DNA from: Streptococcus sp. oral taxon 431
Lineage (GTDB): Bacteria; Bacillota; Bacilli; Lactobacillales; Streptococcaceae
NCBI RefSeq assembly: GCF_001553685.1
Contig: NZ_CP014264.1
Location: forward strand, 876,001 to 940,000
Length of the DNA stretch: 64,000 nt
Reading direction: 5' to 3'
Shown here: positions 53,041 through 63,116 of the stretch, one piece after another
Numbering within the stretch: the stretch's first letter is position 1
How the letters are laid out: every line of letters begins with the position of its first letter
Position numbers and translations under genes: made by a program
The notes under the pieces: model-generated
The model's input: only the letters and a program-made list of their open reading frames with translations
The model's database searches: none
What the model was told of the DNA's origin: nothing

Positions 53041-55214
53041 TATTGAATCCTCTTTTCTAAGCGTTTTGCAAGTCTAGTAAGAAGAGTGATAATCACAAGA
53101 TAGAAGACTGCGAGAATTGCATACATTTTGAAACTTTGGTAGTTACGGGCGATGATAATCTTACCAGTCTGGAAGAGCTCTACTAGCCCGATTGCAGATA
53201 CGATAGTTGTATCTTTAAGTGCGATAACAAATTGGTTGACAAAGTTTGGAAGCATAAGTTTGGTTGCTTGTGGCAAGACAATCTTACGCATGGTTTTACT
53301 GTAAGAGATACCAAGGCTTCGACTAGCTTCCATTTGTCCGATAGGAACAGCCTTAATACCACCACGAACAATTTCAGCGATGTAGGCAGCTGAGTTTAGC
53401 GAGAGGGCGATTGTACCAGCGACAAAGTCATTGATTGGACTCTGTTGACCTGTAAGGGATTCGATAAAGTTAGGAATTCCCCAGAAGATAAAGGCAGCAA
53501 GAATCATCAATGGAATACCACGAATCACATCGACAAAGATTTCCGAAATGAGACGAAGTGATTTATAAGGACTAACGCTAAACATACCAAAGATAATCCC
53601 AATAACAATCGCAATTGCAAAGGAAATTAGAGCTAGAGAAAGGGTAATTCCTAGTCCGCTGAGGAGTTGTTTATAGTTGTTTTTCAACAAGCCCCAAATA
53701 GTAGTTTCGTCAACAGTTGATGATTCACTTGTTGAATCAGTTGCAAGGTATTTATCAAGAATCTTTTGGAATTCACCGCTTGCTTTAAGATTTGCAAGAC
53801 CGTTGTTGAACATTTCAATCAATTCAGGATTGCTTCCCTTTTTAACTGCAAAAGCAGTTTCACCAATTGGAGTACCTTCGATTGGTGTTTTTAATTTTTG
53901 ACCCTGACTGATAGAGTATTTAAGAACGGGTTCGTCATCCATCACAGCATCAACTGCACCAGTATTCAAGCTGTCATACATAGATGAACCATCTGCAAAG
54001 GTTTTAATTTTATAACCATATTTGCTTTGATTTTCAGTTAGGAAGGTTTGAGAAGCCGTCCCGTTTTTTACACCAACGGTTTTACCCTTCAAATCTTCAT
54101 AAGAAGAAATCGTACTTGATTCCTTAACTCCAAGAATAGTATTAGCTGTATAGTAAGAATCAGAGAAATCAAAGGTTTCTTTACGAGCGTCTGTAACAGA
54201 CATACCAGCAATCATACCATCAGCTTGACCAGATTGAACTGCGTTAATAGCAGCGTCAAAACCTGGGTTGGTGATTTCAATTTCAAAACCTTGGTCTTCG
54301 GCAATAGCCTTGATCAAGTCCATATCAATACCAGTGTACTGGTTGCTTGAGTTCTGGAAGACAAATGGTGCAAATGAAGAATCACTAGCGATAACGTATT
54401 TTGATTTAACTGGAGTAGCTTTTTGACCTGCGCTTGTAGTAGAAGTGAGAGAAGTCACTTGTGAACTAGTTTTAGAAGAGTTTGTCCATTTATTGATAAT
54501 TTTGTCCAAGCTACCATCTTTTTTCATCTGAGCTAAAGCTTCGTTAAATTCTGTAACTAGGTATTCGTACTTGCTGCCTTTTTTAACACCGAAAGCAAAG
54601 CTTCCAACGGCTTCTCCGTCCATGTTGATACTGAGATCTTGCCCTTGGTTAATAGCGTACTCGATAACTGGTTTGTCATCCATGATGGCATTTACAGCAC
54701 CTGTACTGAGACTGTTATTCATCAAATCCCCAGTATCAAAGGTTTTGATAGTGAAACCATATTTATCTTTGATACTTTCTAGGAAACGTTGTGCAGCAGT
54801 ACCGTTTTTAACACCAACAGTTTTACCACTTAGTTCTTCATACTTAGTGATTTTATTAGACTTAGTCGTTGCGATGACAACTTTTGTATCATAGTATGTA
54901 TCAGACATGGTAAAGACGTTTTCACGTTCTTTGGTTTTTGTCATACCAGCCATGATCGCATCTGCTTGCCCTGCTTGGACCGCATTGACAGCAGCATCAA
55001 AGCCTGGATAAGACATTTGGATATTCCATCCTTTTATCTCAGCGACTTTATTGATGATGTCGACATCAATTCCTTTATAAGTCTGGTCTGTATCTTTAAA
55101 CTCAAAGGGCGCATAAGCAGTATCACTAACAATCTTGATAGTGTCCGCATTAACATAGCCTAGAGAGAATAAGGGAAATAAAAATAATAAAAATGCAAGG
55201 ATTTTTTTCTTCAT
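53040..55214 (-). CDS. Fused double-receptor/permease of a polar amino-acid ABC transporter
   Basis: A 724-residue protein of the GlnHP type. After a signal peptide (1-23) come two SBP_bac_3 receptor domains (about 24-250 and 273-495), both with the same landmarks (TAYAPFEF / [19 protein letters not shown] / [11 protein letters not shown]), then a permease domain with membrane segments from about 512 to 720 and the coupling loop [20 protein letters not shown]. It imports glutamine or similar amino acids. The tandem receptors may raise affinity or widen the range. The following gene supplies the ATPase. Confidence 0.95.
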
Positions 55215-55243
55215 GTTTAGTCTCCTTTTTAGAATATTTAACC

Positions 55244-55272
55244 ATTATAGCAGAAACTAAAAAAGTTGGCAA
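55244..55272 (-). promoter_or_regulatory. Promoter of the glutamine-type transporter operon
   Basis: Minus strand: TTGCCA (55272-55267), 17 bases, extended -10 TGCTATAAT (TATAAT at 55249-55244). Confidence 0.85.
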
Positions 55273-55355
55273 ATATTTAGTGCTTTTATGTAAGAAGATG
55301 TGACATGAGATACTAAATGGCAAGAAGTTGAGAATCAGTAAGTCGATCCTTTTTA

Positions 55356-55364
55356 TGGTAAAAT
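55356..55364 (+). promoter_or_regulatory. Extended -10 promoter of uvrB
   Basis: TGGTAAAAT at 55356-55364; -35 not clear. Divergent from the transporter promoter. I see no clear LexA-type or DinR box. Confidence 0.6.
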
Positions 55365-55394
55365 AGAAGGATAGAAAAGATGTATGAGGCAATT

Positions 55395-57383
55395 ATGATC
55401 AATAGAATTACAGACAACAAATTTAAACTCGTATCTAAATACCAACCGTCTGGGGATCAACCGCAGGCTATTGAGCAGTTGGTAGATAACATTGAGGGTG
55501 GAGAAAAGGCCCAAATCCTGATGGGGGCGACTGGTACAGGAAAGACCTATACCATGAGCCAGGTGATTTCTAAAATTAATAAACCAACCCTAGTCATCGC
55601 CCACAATAAGACGCTAGCAGGCCAGCTCTATGGGGAGTTTAAGGAATTTTTCCCTGAAAATGCAGTTGAGTACTTCGTATCTTACTATGATTACTACCAG
55701 CCGGAAGCTTATGTTCCATCGAGCGATACCTACATCGAAAAAGATAGTTCAGTCAACGATGAGATTGATAAACTTCGTCACTCCGCGACTTCAGCACTCT
55801 TGGAGCGTAACGATGTCATCGTTGTAGCATCTGTATCTTGTATTTATGGTTTGGGTTCGCCTAAGGAATACGCTGATAGTGTCGTTAGTCTCCGTCCAGG
55901 TCTTGAGATTTCTCGAGATAAACTGCTCAATGACTTGGTTGATATTCAGTTCGAACGCAATGACATTGATTTTCAGCGTGGAAGATTCCGTGTTCGTGGA
56001 GATGTGGTGGAGATTTTCCCAGCCTCTCGTGATGAGCATGCCTTTCGCGTAGAGTTTTTCGGCGATGAGATCGATCGCATCCGTGAAGTCGAAGCTTTAA
56101 CTGGTCAAGTTCTGGGCGAAGTGGATCATTTGGCTATTTTTCCAGCTACTCACTTTGTGACTAATGATGACCACATGGAAGTAGCTATTGCTAAGATCGA
56201 GGCCGAGTTGGAGGAGCAGTTAGCTATCTTTGAGAAGGAAGGCAAACTCCTCGAAGCGCAACGCTTGAAACAACGGACAGAGTACGATATCGAGATGCTA
56301 CGTGAGATGGGTTATACCAATGGTGTCGAAAACTACTCACGTCACATGGATGGACGAAGCGAAGGAGAGCCACCGTACACCCTTCTTGATTTCTTCCCGG
56401 ATGATTTTTTGATTATGATAGATGAGAGTCACATGACTATGGGGCAAATCAAAGGAATGTATAATGGAGACCGTTCACGTAAGGAAATGTTGGTTAACTA
56501 CGGTTTCCGTTTGCCGTCTGCCTTGGACAACCGTCCCCTCCGTCGTGAAGAGTTTGAAAGTCATGTCCACCAAATTGTCTACGTTTCAGCGACACCTGGT
56601 GATTACGAGATGGAACAAACGGACACCGTGATTGAGCAAATCATTCGTCCAACAGGTCTTTTGGATCCTGAGGTAGAAGTGCGTCCAACCATGGGACAGA
56701 TTGATGACCTCCTGGGGGAAATCAATGCCCGAGTTGAAAAGAACGAGCGTACCTTTATTACAACCTTGACCAAGAAAATGGCAGAAGACTTGACAGACTA
56801 CTTCAAGGAAATGGGGATCAAGGTCAAGTACATGCACTCGGATATCAAGACTTTAGAGCGGACAGAGATTATCCGAGATTTACGATTAGGAGTCTTTGAT
56901 GTCTTGGTTGGAATCAATCTCCTTCGTGAAGGGATTGACATTCCTGAAGTAAGTCTGGTTGCTATTCTCGATGCTGACAAGGAAGGCTTCCTCCGAAATG
57001 AACGTGGTCTTATTCAGACCATTGGACGTGCAGCTCGTAATAGTGAAGGGCATGTCATCATGTATGCTGATACTATGACTCAGTCTATGCAAAAAGCCAT
57101 TGATGAAACAGCTCGTCGTCGTAAAATTCAGATGGCCTATAATGAAGAACATGGCATTGTCCCACAAACTATTAAGAAGGAAATCCGAGACCTTATCTCT
57201 GTCACAAAAACTGTGGCTAAAGAAGAGGACAAGGAAGTCGATATCAATAGCCTCAATAAACAAGAACGCAAAGAACTAGTCAAGAAACTGGAAAAACAAA
57301 TGCAAGAAGCCGTCGAAGTGCTTGACTTTGAGTTGGCAGCGCAAATACGTGATATGATGTTGGAAGTCAAGGCGTTGGGTTAG
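55395..57383 (+). CDS. uvrB: Excinuclease ABC subunit B
   Basis: Damage-verification helicase of nucleotide excision repair; works with UvrA and UvrC. The 662 residues have Walker [13 protein letters not shown], the damage-binding hairpin region [12 protein letters not shown], Walker B IDESHMT, motif [10 protein letters not shown] and the C-terminal UVR domain ([18 protein letters not shown]). The start at 55395 (MINRITDN) with GAGG before it fits the family; an in-frame ATG at 55380 adds 5 residues. The last 89 bases plus the stop region are repeated at 59315-59409. Confidence 0.96.
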
Positions 57384-57389
57384 ATAGGA
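57295..57389 (+). repeat. Direct repeat, left copy (functional uvrB 3' end)
   Basis: Ninety-five bases that end 6 bases after the uvrB stop codon. They recur at 59315-59409 exactly 2020 bases downstream with one difference (G57302 against A59322). The inner 87 bases (57303-57389) are identical. This copy completes uvrB and carries on into the ribosome binding site of the cassette gene. Confidence 0.95.
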
Positions 57390-57396
57390 GGAGCTT

Positions 57397-59286
57397 ATGA
57401 AGATTACAGAAAATAATGAATTTCCATGCTGGGGTCAATATCCAAAAGAGAATCCCAAATTTAAATATGTTAGAGCTAAACTCAATGATAAAATTATTCC
57501 TGAGATTTCTGATGAAGATTTTAGAGCACTATCTGACTTTCCTTTGATATATATTTATATATCTCCTATTCAAAGTGATGGAAGAAAGTATTACATTGGT
57601 CAGACTATTGATGTGAGTAGAAGAACTGAAGAGCATAGTAAGAAAATAGAGAGATATCTTATAAAAGAAGGTAAAGAAGAATTAAATAAAAAGTATGATA
57701 AACGATTTGAATCTTTTAAAGGTGGCGACTATATTGCTTTTTATGGGGAGAATATATCTCAAAACTTAAACTATATTGAAAAAATTTTAATTTTAACTTT
57801 TATTGAAGAATTTAATTTTTTAAATTTTGTAAACATGAATAAAGATGGAGATTACGTTGGTAAATTACTTGCAAACAAAGATAGAGGTAATGAGTCAGGA
57901 AAAAATCAATATTCAAGAGAAGAACTTGAAAAAAATGTAATCAACAATATTCTTAATTTTTTAAAGAAGAGTAAATTTATTGATGATAAACTTAACTTAG
58001 AGAGGGTTACTTCATGTCTATTTGCAGAGAGTCCATTCTTTGAACTCACGAAAAATCAAAATGCCATTTTAAAAAAGATTTTAAAACCAAGTGGTAAGCG
58101 TGTTCATTTTATTAAAGGAGGAGCTGGAACAGGAAAAACTGTACTATTATTACATATTATTGCTCATTTAAAATTAGAAAGACCTAATTCTCAAATTGCT
58201 ATATTTGTAAGGAATATACATAGAGATCGATTTGAAAAAATTTTAACTAGTTACGGATTGAAACTGGACGATAACAATATTGATATAGTTACATTTAATC
58301 AATTAACAGAACCAAAAAAGAAGTATGATTATATAATTATTGATGAAGCCCAGAGAACAACTAGAATAACAACGGATTTAATGTATCCTACAGGTGCAAA
58401 GCTTGATACAGATCTTTTGAAAAAAATTAATGGAATTTCTAATAATAAAAAATATTTAACTAAGGAAGAGTTTGAAAAACTACCGTGTCCATCTGTTTTA
58501 GACTATATCAAAAAAGAATTCGATGATTCACAGTTAATAATTTCTTATAATAATACTCAATGTTTAAGAAAAGTTGATAATAAATATGTTGAAAAAACTT
58601 TTAAAGATGTACAGAGTGTTGTTAATAATACTCCTGAATTAGAACCACAGCTCAGAATTTTAAAAGGTAATGATAGTAAATTTGCAAATAAGTTTATAAA
58701 ATTTATAAAAGATCTGTTAGGAATAGAATCTCAAAAAGAATTGGATGATCACTTTGTTTCTAAATATAAAGATTTAGGAGAAAAAGAATATTTTAAAATT
58801 GCAAGAAATATAGAAGAATGGGTGAAATATGTTCCAGATAAGCAGTTTAAATTTTCCGAAAAAAAATCACTTCGTTTGGCTGGGTACTGCAAACCAGTAA
58901 AAAAAGCAAATGATTATGAATTTATTAAGATTGAATCTACTGGAGAGGTACTACAATGGAGTATGAAAGGAAAAGAATTTAGAGAATATTCAACTCATTC
59001 TAAGAGAGTGGGAAGTGTCTATGATATTCATGGTTATGATGTAGATTTTACATCTGTCTTTATTGGCAAAGATATAAGTCTAAATTGTGAAACACAACTT
59101 ATCACAGTTAATAGAGATTGTTTTTTTGATAGAGGAGCTAAAAAGGGAGTAGAAGAAATTGATGAATATGTCAAAAATGCTTATTATATTTTATTAACAA
59201 GAGCAGTATATGGGCAAATGGTTTATATTGAGGATGATAAACTAAGGGAGTTTTTACTCAAAATATTTCCTGCTGACAAAAATTAA
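57397..59286 (+). CDS. GIY-YIG nuclease-like / DUF2075 helicase-like protein
   Basis: A 629-residue protein of two parts. Residues about 48-150 look like a GIY-YIG nuclease: IYIYISP (51-57), KYYIGQT (64-70), Arg75/76, His80 and a Glu at 128 in YIEKILI. Residues about 215-625 form a DUF2075 P-loop domain: Walker A GGAGTGKT (241-248), Walker B DYIIIDEAQR (311-320), then late SVYDIHGYDVDF and NAYYILLTRAVYGQM, which resemble superfamily 1 helicase motifs. The likely role is cutting foreign nucleic acid; this is inference. GGAGGAG stands 5 bases before the ATG. The gene is far more AT-rich than uvrB and depends on uvrB transcription or on read-through. Confidence 0.85.
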   Translation: MKITENNEFPCWGQYPKENPKFKYVRAKLNDKIIPEISDEDFRALSDFPLIYIYISPIQSDGRKYYIGQTIDVSRRTEEHSKKIERYLIKEGKEELNKKYDKRFESFKGGDYIAFYGENISQNLNYIEKILILTFIEEFNFLNFVNMNKDGDYVGKLLANKDRGNESGKNQYSREELEKNVINNILNFLKKSKFIDDKLNLERVTSCLFAESPFFELTKNQNAILKKILKPSGKRVHFIKGGAGTGKTVLLLHIIAHLKLERPNSQIAIFVRNIHRDRFEKILTSYGLKLDDNNIDIVTFNQLTEPKKKYDYIIIDEAQRTTRITTDLMYPTGAKLDTDLLKKINGISNNKKYLTKEEFEKLPCPSVLDYIKKEFDDSQLIISYNNTQCLRKVDNKYVEKTFKDVQSVVNNTPELEPQLRILKGNDSKFANKFIKFIKDLLGIESQKELDDHFVSKYKDLGEKEYFKIARNIEEWVKYVPDKQFKFSEKKSLRLAGYCKPVKKANDYEFIKIESTGEVLQWSMKGKEFREYSTHSKRVGSVYDIHGYDVDFTSVFIGKDISLNCETQLITVNRDCFFDRGAKKGVEEIDEYVKNAYYILLTRAVYGQMVYIEDDKLREFLLKIFPADKN

Positions 59287-59314
59287 TTGATTGTAAAATA
59301 GTATATTAATTTTT

Positions 59315-59409
59315 AACAAATACAAGAAGCCGTCGAAGTGCTTGACTTTGAGTTGGCAGCGCAAATACGTGATATGATGTTGGAAGTCAAGGCGTTGGGT
59401 TAGATAGGA
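59315..59409 (+). repeat. Direct repeat, right copy (uvrB 3' remnant)
   Basis: Second copy of the last bases of uvrB, including its stop codon and TAGATAGGA, with one difference from 57295-57389. Here it has no coding function. It leads into TAAAGCGAATG, the start region of the GNAT gene. Confidence 0.95.
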
Positions 59410-59417
59410 TAAAGCGA

Positions 59418-59915
59418 ATGAAGATTATCATTAAAACAATGGAAACTCCTGAAGAGATAGAAGGGAAGTCCCTCGTTCACTGGCAAAAGTGGAGAGAAGC
59501 TTATGACGATCTTTTACCCGCGGAATTTCAGGAGACGATGACATTAGATAGATGTCGTTTCTTTAGTCAAAAGTATCCAGAAAATACCTTGATTGCGATG
59601 GATGGAAAGAAGGTCGTTGGATTTATCAGCTATGGAAATTTTCGTGATGAGGCCATTCAAGCTGGTGAAATCATTGCCTTATATGTTTTAAAAGATTACT
59701 ATGGAAAAGGTGTGAGTGAACAGTTAATGCATGCTGCATTTGTTGCTCTTGATCATTTCTCTGAAATTTATTTATGGGTATTGAAAGATAATAAGCGAGC
59801 TATTGCTTTTTATCAAAAAATGGGTTTTACTTTTGATGGCCAAGAAAAAATACTTAAACTTGGAAAGCCTGTTAAGGAATTGAGGATGATGTGTTCTTCA
59901 AATAAAAATTCCTAA
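59418..59915 (+). CDS. GNAT family N-acetyltransferase
   Basis: A 165-residue GNAT acetyltransferase. The acetyl-CoA site is IIALYVLKDYYGKGVSEQLM (about 93-112; the RxxGxG/A pattern is here YYGKGV) and the late LWVLKDNKRAIAFYQKMGF motif is typical. The substrate is unknown. The gene was probably next to uvrB before the cassette arrived: the right repeat ends 9 bases before its ATG. The ribosome binding site is weak (GGATAAAG). Confidence 0.88.
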   Translation: MKIIIKTMETPEEIEGKSLVHWQKWREAYDDLLPAEFQETMTLDRCRFFSQKYPENTLIAMDGKKVVGFISYGNFRDEAIQAGEIIALYVLKDYYGKGVSEQLMHAAFVALDHFSEIYLWVLKDNKRAIAFYQKMGFTFDGQEKILKLGKPVKELRMMCSSNKNS

Positions 59916-60009
59916 AGAACGTATCTATCAATCTTTGAACCATTATCAACTAATAAGGTATAAAAAGTGAAATAGATAGAATGAAACAAAGAGATGAAGG
60001 AGAAGATGA

Positions 60010-60636
60010 ATGAAAATTCTAGTCATCAATGGACACCCGGATAAGGAAAGTTATTGTCAGGCTATTTTTCAAACCATTGTAGAAAATATTGACTCAAGGC
60101 ATCATGAGCTTGAAGTCATCAATCTTAATGAAGAAGATTTTGACCCTGTTTTACGTTATGGTTATCGAAAACGTATGGAAGAAGATTCTTTTATCCTTCA
60201 TTCTCAGGAATTAATCCAATGGGCAGATCATTTCATCTTTATTTATCCTATCTGGTGGAGTAGTATGCCTAGCCTCATGAAAGGCTGGATTGATCGTGTC
60301 TTCACACCTGGAATTGCCTACTTTGCCAATGACCAGGGAAGTTTTATCTGGAATTATCTAAGAGGCAAGCAGTTTAAAAAGTTATTAAAAGGGAAAACAG
60401 CCAGTATTTACGCAACCTCCATGGCGCCCACTTGGTGGTACAAGATCTTTTCGGGTCCTATCAACATTCCAGATAGCTATGGCATCTCTGTTTTGAAAAA
60501 TGCGGTCTTGAATCACTGTGGGATTAAAACCAAGCGCGTGTGCGTACTAGGTGAAGTTGGACGGGATGTGAATACAGCAAGTATGCGTGAAGAGCATCTC
60601 CAAAAAGTAGCAGAAGAAGTTAAAAAACTATCATGA
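60010..60636 (+). CDS. NAD(P)H-dependent quinone reductase (flavodoxin fold)
   Basis: A 208-residue protein of the NQO1/MdaB-like flavodoxin-2 family. The FMN phosphate loop is INGHPDKESYCQAI (residues 6-19) and the second flavin contact YPIWWSSMPSLMKGWIDRVF (about 78-97). It reduces quinones with NAD(P)H in the cytoplasm. GAAGGAGAAG precedes the ATG. It overlaps the membrane-protein gene by 4 bases (ATGA). Confidence 0.9.
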   Translation: MKILVINGHPDKESYCQAIFQTIVENIDSRHHELEVINLNEEDFDPVLRYGYRKRMEEDSFILHSQELIQWADHFIFIYPIWWSSMPSLMKGWIDRVFTPGIAYFANDQGSFIWNYLRGKQFKKLLKGKTASIYATSMAPTWWYKIFSGPINIPDSYGISVLKNAVLNHCGIKTKRVCVLGEVGRDVNTASMREEHLQKVAEEVKKLS

Positions 60637-61184
60637 AACAAAAAAGTAAGAGACAGAAAATATTAAAAAAACACCAGAAATCAAATCGAAAGATTGGTTT
60701 ACTAGACCGCATGAATCTGTGGTTTGTGCAACATTCAACAATTGCCTGGATCCTTGATGCAAGCGTTCTGTTCTTTTCTGCTCTAGGAATATTATATTTA
60801 TTGTACGGAACAACCCTTATTCCAAGTCCCTATCGGGAACTGCATTATAGTTTTCCACTTTATTTAAATATCGTTCTTTTGGTGAATGCATCTTATCATA
60901 CTTTCCTTCGTAACTTTAGGAAAGACTGGATTTCCTTGCGAAATTTTGCAGAAGTGTTTTTATATTCTAACGGAATTGCTTGTGTATTACAGTTAACGAT
61001 TGGGATGACCTCTAAAAGAGGAAGAAGACTACTTCCGATATGGGCATTAGACTATCGCTATATCTGGTTTCCCCTCGTTACTTATTTCATTTTCTTTCTA
61101 GTGCCTATTGTGACAATTATAATTTCCAAGTATATTGAAAAGAAAAAGAGAAAAGAAGAAAATGGGAAAAATACAATCAAATAA
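60633..61184 (+). CDS. Hypothetical membrane protein, paralogue 1
   Basis: A 183-residue protein with a strongly basic N-terminus (KQKSKRQKILKKHQKSNRK) and four membrane segments (about 38-58, 72-90, 110-130, 148-168). It shares IPSPYRELHYSFPLYLN and LDYRYIWFPLVTYFIFF with the next gene, so the two arose by tandem duplication. I do not recognise a family. It overlaps both neighbours, which points to a translationally coupled set with the quinone reductase. Confidence 0.75.
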   Translation: MKQKSKRQKILKKHQKSNRKIGLLDRMNLWFVQHSTIAWILDASVLFFSALGILYLLYGTTLIPSPYRELHYSFPLYLNIVLLVNASYHTFLRNFRKDWISLRNFAEVFLYSNGIACVLQLTIGMTSKRGRRLLPIWALDYRYIWFPLVTYFIFFLVPIVTIIISKYIEKKKRKEENGKNTIK

Positions 61185-61686
61185 AAGTAACAAAAGAAAG
61201 TCAAATACAAAAAAGATTCTTTCAAGGAAAGAAAATCTTCAGCTTTGGATGAATTCTCATAAATTATTAGGTTTCTTCTTGGTATTTGGTCTAATCTTAG
61301 GAATAGGGCTAGGTGTCAATCTTGTTTTTAAACTCCTTCCTATTCCGTCGCCATACAGAGATATCAACTATAGTTTTCCAATATATATAAATCTTTTTTG
61401 TCTAGTGTATCGATTATTTGACTATTGGTTCCTAGACTTGACTAGGACAAGAATGACGATAAAAAGATATGCAGATTTATTTATCTATCTTAATAGTATC
61501 GGTCTAGTGGTTCATCTTTTTATTGGTATTGGCGGGAAAAATAGTAAAGGAATTTTACCTTCTCTCTTATCCCTAGATCACCGTTACATTTGGTTTCCAA
61601 TAGCAACTTATCTGATCTTTTTCAGTTTGGCATCTATTATAACTATAGCGATGAAATATATTGAAAAGAAAAGGAGTCAATCATGA
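61162..61686 (+). CDS. Hypothetical membrane protein, paralogue 2
   Basis: A 174-residue protein, paralogue of the gene before it: IPSPYRDINYSFPIYIN and LDHRYIWFPIATYLIFF match in order and spacing. The N-terminus is basic (GKIQSNKSNKRKSNTKK) and four membrane segments follow. The ATG at 61162 is preferred to 61135, which would add Lys/Arg-rich residues read from the paralogue-1 tail; AGAAGAAA precedes it. It overlaps the next gene by 4 bases. Confidence 0.75.
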   Translation: MGKIQSNKSNKRKSNTKKILSRKENLQLWMNSHKLLGFFLVFGLILGIGLGVNLVFKLLPIPSPYRDINYSFPIYINLFCLVYRLFDYWFLDLTRTRMTIKRYADLFIYLNSIGLVVHLFIGIGGKNSKGILPSLLSLDHRYIWFPIATYLIFFSLASIITIAMKYIEKKRSQS

Positions 61687-62114
61687 TGAAACATCTAACT
61701 GTATTTAGGTTTATTTATCTTTTGTGCCTGGTATTTGTACTGATTCATTTTATCTTAGGGCTTTTTGGTTTAGCCTTTACACCAGTCTTGTGGAATCTCT
61801 GGTTTTTTGGTCTTTGCTTGACCTTATTTATCCATCCGTGGACTATCTTTTATAAATCTAGAATCTTTCAATGGCATCATCTAATTTTTCAGACTCTCAG
61901 CGGCTTCATTGCACTCTTGATCTGGTTTATGACATTTTTCTTCTTTTCCATGGTCCCAGATTCATCTATGCCTATCAATATAGACTATCAGGTGAATAGT
62001 AAAGAAAAGGAAATTAGAATTATTAGAGGATCTTTGCTCCATGAAATTCATGAATATCACGACTTAGTTAATCCTTTGATTATGAAGTCTAAAGTTAAGT
62101 ATGTGGAAAATTAA
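61683..62114 (+). CDS. Hypothetical membrane protein
   Basis: A 143-residue protein with three or four membrane segments (about 7-27, 31-50 and 62-93) and a hydrophilic C-terminal part (VNSKEKEIRIIRGSLLHEIHEYHDLVNPLIM). It is not clearly related to the two genes before it. AAGGAG lies 6 bases before the ATG at 61683. It is the last of the three overlapping membrane genes. Family and function unknown. Confidence 0.75.
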   Translation: MMKHLTVFRFIYLLCLVFVLIHFILGLFGLAFTPVLWNLWFFGLCLTLFIHPWTIFYKSRIFQWHHLIFQTLSGFIALLIWFMTFFFFSMVPDSSMPINIDYQVNSKEKEIRIIRGSLLHEIHEYHDLVNPLIMKSKVKYVEN

Positions 62115-62136
62115 ACATTAGAAAGTGAGTCTATGT

Positions 62137-62604
62137 ATGTCTCGAGCACAATTAACCATTCTAACTAATATTTGTCTAATAGAAGACCTTGAAAATCAGC
62201 GCGTGGTTATGCAGTATCGATCGCCTGAAACCAATCGCTGGTCTGGCTATGCCTTTCCAGGAGGTCATGTTGAAAATGGAGAAGCTTTTGCAGAATCTGT
62301 TATTCGTGAAATTTACGAGGAAACAGGTCTGACTATTAAAAATCCTCAACTGGTCGGTATAAAAAATTGGCCTTTAGACTCAGGTGAGCGCTACATTGTC
62401 TTTTGTTATAAAGCGACTGAGTTCACCGGTACTCTCCAATCATCTGAAGAAGGAGAAGTGTCCTGGGTGCAAAAAGACCAGATTCCAAATTTGGATCTGG
62501 CCTATGATATGTTACCTTTGATGGAGATGATGGAAGCTCCTGATAAGTCAGAATTTTTCTATCGTCACCGTACAGAAGATGGATGGGAAAAGAAAACCTT
62601 CTAA
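62137..62604 (+). CDS. mutX: MutX/MutT-like 8-oxo-dGTP pyrophosphatase
   Basis: A 155-residue NUDIX enzyme that removes oxidised GTP from the nucleotide pool. The box is complete: GGHVENGEAFAESVIREIYEETGL split as G-x5-E-x7-REIYEETGL, behind WSGYAFPG. It closely follows the streptococcal MutX pattern (LTILTNICLIEDLE). The ATG at 62137 with GAAAGTGAG before it is chosen over a GTG at 62125 that lies within that site. The stop overlaps the convergent niaR stop by 4 bases (62601-62604). Confidence 0.9.
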   Translation: MSRAQLTILTNICLIEDLENQRVVMQYRSPETNRWSGYAFPGGHVENGEAFAESVIREIYEETGLTIKNPQLVGIKNWPLDSGERYIVFCYKATEFTGTLQSSEEGEVSWVQKDQIPNLDLAYDMLPLMEMMEAPDKSEFFYRHRTEDGWEKKTF

Positions 62605-63116
62605 TCCTTTACTAAATAACCTAACTTATCCAAGGCCTTCTCGATATAGAGGAGGTCTTGTTCATTTTCAGCTTCGACTAGGTGATAATGGACGCCATCT
62701 GTTAATTCAGAAAGTGGTCTAAAGTCAGACCTTTCGACTTGCTCTAAAAAATGCTGAACGTCCCGGCGACAAGAGAGTTTGAGCAAGGTTTCAATTTCAC
62801 CGTAGACAGGATGATCAATCAAGGTATTCTGAACACGTCCCCCATTATCGACGATAGCTAGAAGTTCTTGACCAATTTCTTCCATCTCGTGCTTAACTTT
62901 AAAAAGTTTGTGAACATAAGGATTGGTTTTATTTTCTTTATAAATATAGCCACGATTGCTTGATAAGATCGGAGCACCATCAGCACGCAGTACTGCAATG
63001 TCCTGAACGATAATCTGGCGGGTTACATGAAAACGGTCTGCTAAAGTTTGACCATTTAGAGGTTTTTGAGACTCCTTTAACAGTTGTAAAAGTGCTTCTT
63101 TTCGATTTTTTGTCAT
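62601..63116 (-). CDS. niaR: Niacin-responsive repressor NiaR (HTH and 3H domains)
   Basis: A 171-residue repressor of niacin uptake and NAD synthesis genes. Residues 1-60 form an HTH_11 winged helix (LNGQTLADRFHVTRQIIVQDIAVLR); the rest is the 3H domain with its spaced His residues (PYVHKLFKVKHEME, DHPVYGEI, GVHYHLVEAENEQ) that binds nicotinate. The gene lies 18 bases behind niaX on the same strand, so it probably controls its own operon through the operator at 63677. Confidence 0.92.
   Translation of the reverse strand: MTKNRKEALLQLLKESQKPLNGQTLADRFHVTRQIIVQDIAVLRADGAPILSSNRGYIYKENKTNPYVHKLFKVKHEMEEIGQELLAIVDNGGRVQNTLIDHPVYGEIETLLKLSCRRDVQHFLEQVERSDFRPLSELTDGVHYHLVEAENEQDLLYIEKALDKLGYLVKD

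Follow-up and report, generated by a model that had tools for sequence, protein, structure and literature searches.

In a 64,000-nt stretch of the genome of Streptococcus sp. oral taxon 431 (NZ_CP014264.1, positions 876,001 to 940,000; called here the window), a single AT-rich gene, the cargo, encoding a protein with a GIY-YIG nuclease region and a Schlafen-group-3 (SLFN-g3) helicase domain, lies directly behind an intact uvrB and is enclosed by two copies of the 3' end of uvrB. In our reading, this unit was produced by homology-facilitated illegitimate recombination (HFIR), in all likelihood via natural transformation, with a crossover in uvrB and an imprecise join in the uvrB tail of the recipient, and we give it a probability of about 0.6.

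A direct-repeat scan of positions 54000-63000 gives as its top pair two stretches of 95 nt (57295-57389 and 59315-59409), offset by 2020 nt and 99% identical, with a single mismatch at repeat position 8 where the left copy reads ATG and the right one ATA. As the second-longest repeat family in this region is a 30-nt pair at 77%, the 95-nt pair is far above chance. A search of the 2.18-Mb genome confines matches to these two places. In the 448 kb of genome scanned (the 64-kb window and 384 kb more), this is also the sole gene-3'-end repeat within 8 kb, the remaining pairs being intergenic, internal to long repetitive genes, shared by similar genes, or flanking a transposase labelled ISL3-like by eye. 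The uvrB open reading frame (ORF), listed at 55380-57383, likely starts with MINR at 55395, encodes 662 aa (55395-57383), remains intact to its stop at 57383 and clusters with the uvrB of 128 other Streptococcus loci. The left copy is made of its last 89 nt, stop included, and the 6 nt that follow. It is succeeded by the cargo gene, a single ORF of 629 aa (57397-59286) with a GC content of 27.0%, compared with 44.5% for uvrB and 38.8% for the window, then by a 28-nt spacer (59287-59314) and by the right copy. All these features are on the + strand, and the non-genic DNA between repeats and cargo amounts to only 7 and 28 nt. The 13 nt from the uvrB stop to the cargo start hold no promoter-like site; positions 57200-59500 contain 17 such sites, where shuffled sequence gives 12.3 (sd 3.7). 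A sequence-only reading of the window had described the near-identical repeats (89 bases of uvrB and 6 more), the one AT-rich gene between them, the whole uvrB on the left and the absence of a promoter, and our scan and ORF analysis agree with it on each of these points. Its word "self-restoring" stands as geometry only, since a deletion between the copies would yield the empty site. Along uvrB, silent-site constraint (67 genomes, codon-bias corrected, profile computed without L038 and L043) is strongest over 10 codons at 57295-57324, and a second block lies within the last 10 codons of the gene. Six sequences of the uvrB tail were folded and share no structure, and the idea of a hairpin or of an attC-like element there was dropped.

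The right copy is a uvrB 3' remnant that runs into a native junction. When taken with the next 500 nt, it matches the junction between uvrB and a GNAT acetyltransferase gene in the empty-site locus L044 at 96.9% over 589 nt, so the spacing that had been thought to look native is found as such in a relative without the cargo. In the window this GNAT gene, which directly follows uvrB in empty-site relatives, lies at 59418-59915 (+ strand; domain profile and locus comparison). The cargo is also found behind uvrB in S. oralis DD24 (genome G099, locus L034), where its product is 79% identical to that of the window and where the spacer again measures 28 nt; there, the right copy matches another native allele, that of L135, at 93.9% over 589 nt. 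Right junctions with a native match are those of the window, of L034 and of four of the five acyltransferase loci described below, the further values being 97.3% (L033), 96.8% (L035), 92.8% (L036), 84.5% (L032) and 83.5% (L037); among the matches listed, none is native for the right copies of L038 and L043.

The uvrB locus was then compared across the genus. Used as a query against 247 Streptococcus genomes, the repeat matches 220, nine of them twice, the window's own genome included. The 129 uvrB loci compared comprise the window, the eight other two-copy genomes and 120 loci taken by match score; this sample is non-random, 91 of the 220 matching genomes lie outside it, and its second batch covers only about 1 kb of uvrB. 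Comparing each uvrB tail with its own downstream DNA reveals long repeats in 9 of the 129 loci, which are the same nine as the two-copy genomes. Four unrelated cargos are enclosed by them: the GIY-YIG/SLFN gene (two loci), an acyltransferase of the acyltransferase-3 family (five), a PIN_8 gene (one) and a DUF2971 gene (one). These foreign genes have a GC content of 26-32%, and the duplicated part of uvrB measures 21-201 nt. The sequence-only reading had proposed that related genomes be compared for empty sites and for other genes between the same repeats, and both were found. It had also named an assembly artefact as a danger, which is answered by eight further genomes that carry such repeats around this cargo or another one; five of the eight are assembled as a single contig (G022, G060, G118, G151, G222).

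The two edges of these repeats behave differently. Relative to the end of uvrB, the start of the right copy is at -88 nt with the GIY-YIG/SLFN cargo, -200 with the acyltransferase, about -92 with PIN_8 and -109 with DUF2971, and this left edge is constant within a cargo, being identical in 2/2 GIY-YIG loci and 5/5 acyltransferase loci. The right edge of every repeat, by contrast, lies near the uvrB stop. All repeats share the final 21 nt of uvrB, but they differ in length, from 21 to 201 nt. The left copy of each of the five acyltransferase units terminates in ...TAAACTGA or CTAAACTGA, ends that are absent from the compared loci with another first gene, and the right copies carry the common TGGATTAG-type end; the left end thus appears to be donor-linked and the right end native. 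The remnants also decay, as four of the nine right copies show indels (12, 39, 1 and 12 nt).

This architecture is what HFIR would be expected to leave. A donor fragment carrying uvrB and a gene X would pair with the recipient uvrB and cross over within its body. The far end of the donor, having no homology to the DNA downstream of the recipient uvrB, would be joined imprecisely at a point p in the recipient uvrB tail. The product would then read uvrB (recipient, then donor), X, the recipient uvrB tail from p to the stop, and finally the native neighbour Z. uvrB would be kept whole, X would enter the operon by its transcription and translation spacing, and Z would retain its native junction. 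Under HFIR, the right edge is constant because donor uvrB-X and recipient uvrB-Z part there, and the left edge varies because it is the illegitimate join point. HFIR likewise accounts for a uvrB that is whole, for a neighbour that is native and for the lack of an integrase, and the long homology is indeed one-sided, uvrB running into the cargo on the left. Mitis-group streptococci are competent for natural transformation. We infer from these features both the entry of donor DNA by transformation, one of the two routes that the sequence-only reading had put forward and the one supported as most economical, and the illegitimate nature of the join. The same cargo families are also found without a remnant, at five acyltransferase loci and most DUF2971 loci, which is consistent with joins downstream of uvrB or with other routes.

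A shorter relic points to additions made in series. A flavodoxin-fold oxidoreductase is often the gene after GNAT; in the window (60010-60636, + strand; locus comparison, with the PF02525 family taken from a relative) its 3' end is native. In 18 of 61 copies its last 21 nt are uvrB-like (distance 0-5 of 21), the other 43 standing at 9-16. The right neighbour is a GNAT, GNAT2 or lipo gene in 18/18 of the uvrB-ended copies, and among the other 43 it is one of the usual membrane-protein genes in 40, a contig end in two and another gene in one. A Fisher test of 3' end against neighbour gives 2e-15 (3/61 rows left out), a value that overstates independence because the oxidoreductase copies are related by descent. 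At the fusion point, GAAGT is common to both parents. The acyltransferase unit, with its edge at -200, is followed by DUF2971 in two genomes and by the oxidoreductase in three others. In L033, L035 and L036, the -200 and -21 relics of uvrB stand in series, and two additions are thus recorded in one locus.

The units seem to have moved between species after they were formed. Between the window and S. oralis, the identity of codons for the same amino acid is 81.6% in the cargo and 60.5% in uvrB, and position-3 identity goes in the same direction. In the acyltransferase units with repeats, the codon identity of the cargo is above that of uvrB in 10/10 pairs; with the repeat-free acyltransferases included it is above in 16/21 pairs, and for DUF2971 in 21/28. 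As cargo codon identity exceeds that of uvrB, the GIY-YIG and acyltransferase cargos moved after their hosts had split. Since the same unit faces different native neighbours, ordinary recombination may later have carried it from species to species, and the uvrB remnant could have served as one of the homology arms. A stronger form of this idea is a portable cassette, which would have arisen once by some duplication and would since have moved by a pair of crossovers, the first within the body of uvrB and the second within the uvrB remnant that the cassette carries; this remnant would be a functional homology arm that allows entry before any neighbour. It would fit the same left edge and the same 28-nt spacer found in two species together with the high cargo codon identity, the GIY-YIG unit standing before two different native junction alleles, and the acyltransferase unit preceding either DUF2971 or the oxidoreductase. 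A later swap of the downstream gene would nevertheless give the same picture, the expected co-transfer of a uvrB tract leaves no signal, and the origin of the cassette is not explained, so that it complements HFIR more than it opposes it. As a replacement for HFIR, we regard it as rather unlikely.

Several results weigh against HFIR itself. A co-transferred long uvrB tract gives no signal when 400 pairs with the same first gene are compared with 1806 pairs with different genes (pairs of baseline identity >0.9 set aside), and in a test of uvrB 3'-end similarity 272-500 of 500 permutations are at or above the observed value. The five left edges all fall in the last 201 of the 1989 nt of uvrB, which has a probability of about 1e-5 under a uniform join, so that HFIR needs in addition either a bias of the join or the subsequent disappearance of long repeats, for which recombination would be a likely cause. 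The ancestral flanks of the cargos, taken from copies without repeats, do not align past the stops, and microhomology can therefore be read only at the oxidoreductase join. No donor with uvrB and the GIY-YIG/SLFN cargo in the absence of the repeat was found, both known copies (2/2) having it. The oxidoreductase has no movement signal, being above uvrB in only 43/78 pairs. Silent-site constraint in uvrB, taken over 10 codons, peaks in the stretch beginning at codon -29, which is the left edge of the 95-nt repeat. Finally, and most importantly, a distant homologue of the cargo sits in an integrase-type unit at rpsI.

This homologue was found in G501, a genome from another family of the order. 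It is 29% identical to the cargo and stands alone between 125-nt repeats (94.4%; L188, 9054-11746) whose beginning falls within the final ~17 nt of rpsI, and a tyrosine-integrase element directly adjoins it. rpsI is a listed site of integrative and conjugative elements (ICEs) and of integrative and mobilizable elements (IMEs), and the arrangement fits the accretion of cis-mobilizable elements (CIMEs), as described in the accessible text of PMC5704250 and PMC4701971. The cargo family thus travels in one-gene units flanked by att sites, and we retain for this reason the possibility that the uvrB unit is CIME-like, its repeats being attL and attR of an att site at uvrB and its integrase being lost or acting in trans. 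The coincidence of the silent-site constraint peak with the left edge of the repeat would also suit an att site. On the other hand, neither PF00589 nor PF07508 is matched within 20 kb of uvrB in 9/9 repeat-bearing genomes, small serine resolvases (PF00239) not having been searched, and no integrase is seen among the genes of the interval between uvrB and a NUDIX hydrolase gene in the 42 of 72 cluster representatives scanned, the other 30 being judged by eye. The length of the uvrB repeats varies with the cargo and their right copies carry indels. At rpsI, no more than about 17 nt of the gene's 3' end are duplicated and the unit includes intergenic stretches of 280 and 338 nt, whereas the extragenic DNA of the uvrB unit is limited to 7 and 28 nt. 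The repeat has no match in phages, plasmids or viral contigs, and uvrB is unmentioned among 18 streptococcal ICE target genes and in an IME review, as far as the accessible text of PMC5704250 and PMC4701971 goes. The sequence-only reading had suggested a recombinase acting in trans; with the nearest integrase match more than 20 kb away, a cargo-dependent repeat length and so little extragenic DNA, this is unsupported at uvrB, and we hold a CIME-like unit to be improbable there.

The rpsI homologue bears on two further views that centre on the cargo family. One is that the GIY-YIG/SLFN genes are true one-gene cassettes of conserved-gene 3' ends (uvrB, rpsI), which carry a target tail restoring the gene, and that the other defence genes at uvrB share this format and travel with the help of trans-acting recombinases or through transformation on the carried tail; this seems doubtful to us. 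The other is that the nuclease-helicase drives its own insertion as a free-standing homing gene would do. Each of the three contexts sampled for the family, two at uvrB and one at rpsI, is indeed a repeat-flanked gene 3' end, but the repeats at rpsI are explained by the integrase, and the acyltransferase, DUF2971, PIN_8 and oxidoreductase genes show uvrB repeats without any GIY-YIG gene, so that self-driven insertion hardly deserves credit. Nor do the repeats readily suggest a tandem duplication of merodiploid type, formed between chromatids or by template switching and followed by deletion, with no illegitimate join of incoming DNA. Transformation-linked tandem duplications have been demonstrated in S. 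pneumoniae, but in the accessible text of PMC3784515 they span ~100-900 kb and require repeats, whereas only 21-201 nt of uvrB are duplicated here, around foreign genes of 26-32% GC; such an origin is very unlikely.

HFIR has been described for pneumococcus, Acinetobacter and Pseudomonas stutzeri (Prudhomme 2002 and others, as cited in PMC5361080). The molecular route proposed here is thus one already known in the genus, with the difference that those were laboratory events involving selected foreign DNA, whereas the additive one-gene products found behind uvrB arose in nature. A closer likeness is offered by the type VI secretion system (T6SS) arrays of Vibrio cholerae, for which HFIR has been proposed and which contain 3' remnants and stacked immunity genes (Kirchberger-type model; PMC5361080, in the part accessible). 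There too, homology is one-sided, a module is added upstream, the old neighbour is shifted behind a 3' remnant, additions are stacked and later spread by homologous recombination, and no integrase is involved. In these arrays, however, the anchor is an effector gene and the old effector is displaced, whereas the housekeeping anchor uvrB is left whole and most of its cargos are single genes of a defence-like kind. Restriction-modification genes have been reported to insert with a long, variable duplication of the target (Nobusato 2000 and Furuta 2010, as cited in PMC3031569). Long direct repeats of the target around a mobile gene of defence type, without terminal inverted repeats, are common to both cases, and the duplication at uvrB is likewise long and variable (21-201 nt); the uvrB cargo, in contrast, is no restriction-modification system, and the repeats are the 3' end of one gene around several cargos. 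CIMEs and IMEs share with the uvrB unit the gene 3' end as target, the direct repeats, the target left whole and, for CIMEs, the absence of an integrase of their own, but their att cores measure 2-60 bp (PMC5704250, PMC4701971, accessible text) against 21-201 nt according to the cargo, and the uvrB site has neither an integrase-bearing relative nor intergenic arms. The statement of the sequence-only reading that such a pattern is not known for a one-gene unit at uvrB therefore needs softening, long target duplication and the stacking of T6SS immunity genes being close precedents. A literature search for uvrB as a streptococcal integration site or hotspot, or for HFIR in S. mitis, returned nothing relevant, most subscription papers lying outside its reach.

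The domain content of the cargo protein suggests a role in defence. Its GIY-YIG region (residues 51-148; 57547-57840, + strand) gives only a weak match to PF01541 (residues 51-89; 18.3 bits, under the cut-off of 22.6), but Y52, Y66-I67-G68, R75/R76, H80, E128 and N143/N146/N148 are invariant in an alignment of 30 sequences, and the distant homologue of G501 scores 25.6 bits, above the same cut-off. The SLFN-g3 helicase domain (PF09848; residues 234-613; 58096-59235, + strand) is matched at E 4.8e-34 (118.6 bits, cut-off 24), with its motifs GGAGTGKT (Walker A, 241-248) and DEAQ (316-319) invariant in the 30 sequences. PADLOC matches concern the helicase core only (AbiO, 4.6e-17, residues 212-327; Nhi, 9.2e-16, 209-324), without a full-length match. 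Domain and defence profile searches detect no methyltransferase in the protein, and solved structures offer no useful homology. We propose that the cargo probably acts as a one-gene phage defence with nuclease and helicase parts; the domains, the invariant motifs and the partial AbiO and Nhi matches make this a good guess. Nhi is itself a single-gene nuclease-helicase defence (PMC12904381, accessible part). The cargo resembles Nhi and AbiO in joining a nuclease and a helicase in one gene, and its helicase core matches both profiles, but only ~115 of its residues (212-327) match and its nuclease domain is GIY-YIG-like. The gene is present in 2/284 Streptococcus genomes (E <= 1e-30), in 2/395 genomes of a sample drawn from the order (1e-25, its own included) and in 1/398 of a sample drawn from the class (1e-20, its own only), and a search of phages, plasmids and viral contigs found none.

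The region in which these additions occur, from uvrB to the NUDIX hydrolase gene (57384-62604, + strand), is variable, and comparison of loci L032-L166 shows it to be a small turnover region with defence-like genes, whose content changes between genomes. AbiL-like and RloB-like genes are matched in L147, with a similar pair by cluster in L149, and an AbiN-like gene in L101, and the PIN_8 gene counts among the defence-like genes as well; candidate PADLOC models are PDC-S31 for DUF2971 and, for an ATPase of L083, one near PDC-S49. In L080 and L117, an AT-rich ORF of 677-678 aa directly follows uvrB; for that of L117, searches with Pfam, PADLOC and NCBIfam models give nothing at E 0.01. The L142 locus is rearranged, as ORFs with G5 and mucin-binding domains lie on the opposite strand after uvrB. 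In L175 (2543-5022; G000:340543-343022), a 160-nt direct repeat (96%) covers with its first copy the start of a 437-aa transposase-like ORF and starts with its second an 81-aa ORF; it is probably related to an insertion sequence.

Taken together, our results show other genes stacked behind uvrB in relatives, most simply through imprecise recombination of taken-up DNA and not through a dedicated mobile element. A housekeeping operon of transformable bacteria could in this way gain defence genes singly, without an integrase and with both anchor and neighbour intact, and the uvrB tails left behind would be a readable record of each addition. The uvrB-NUDIX interval may thus be a compact place in which to seek streptococcal defence genes, as well as a natural system for testing HFIR and the portability of cassettes by the gene tail that they carry.

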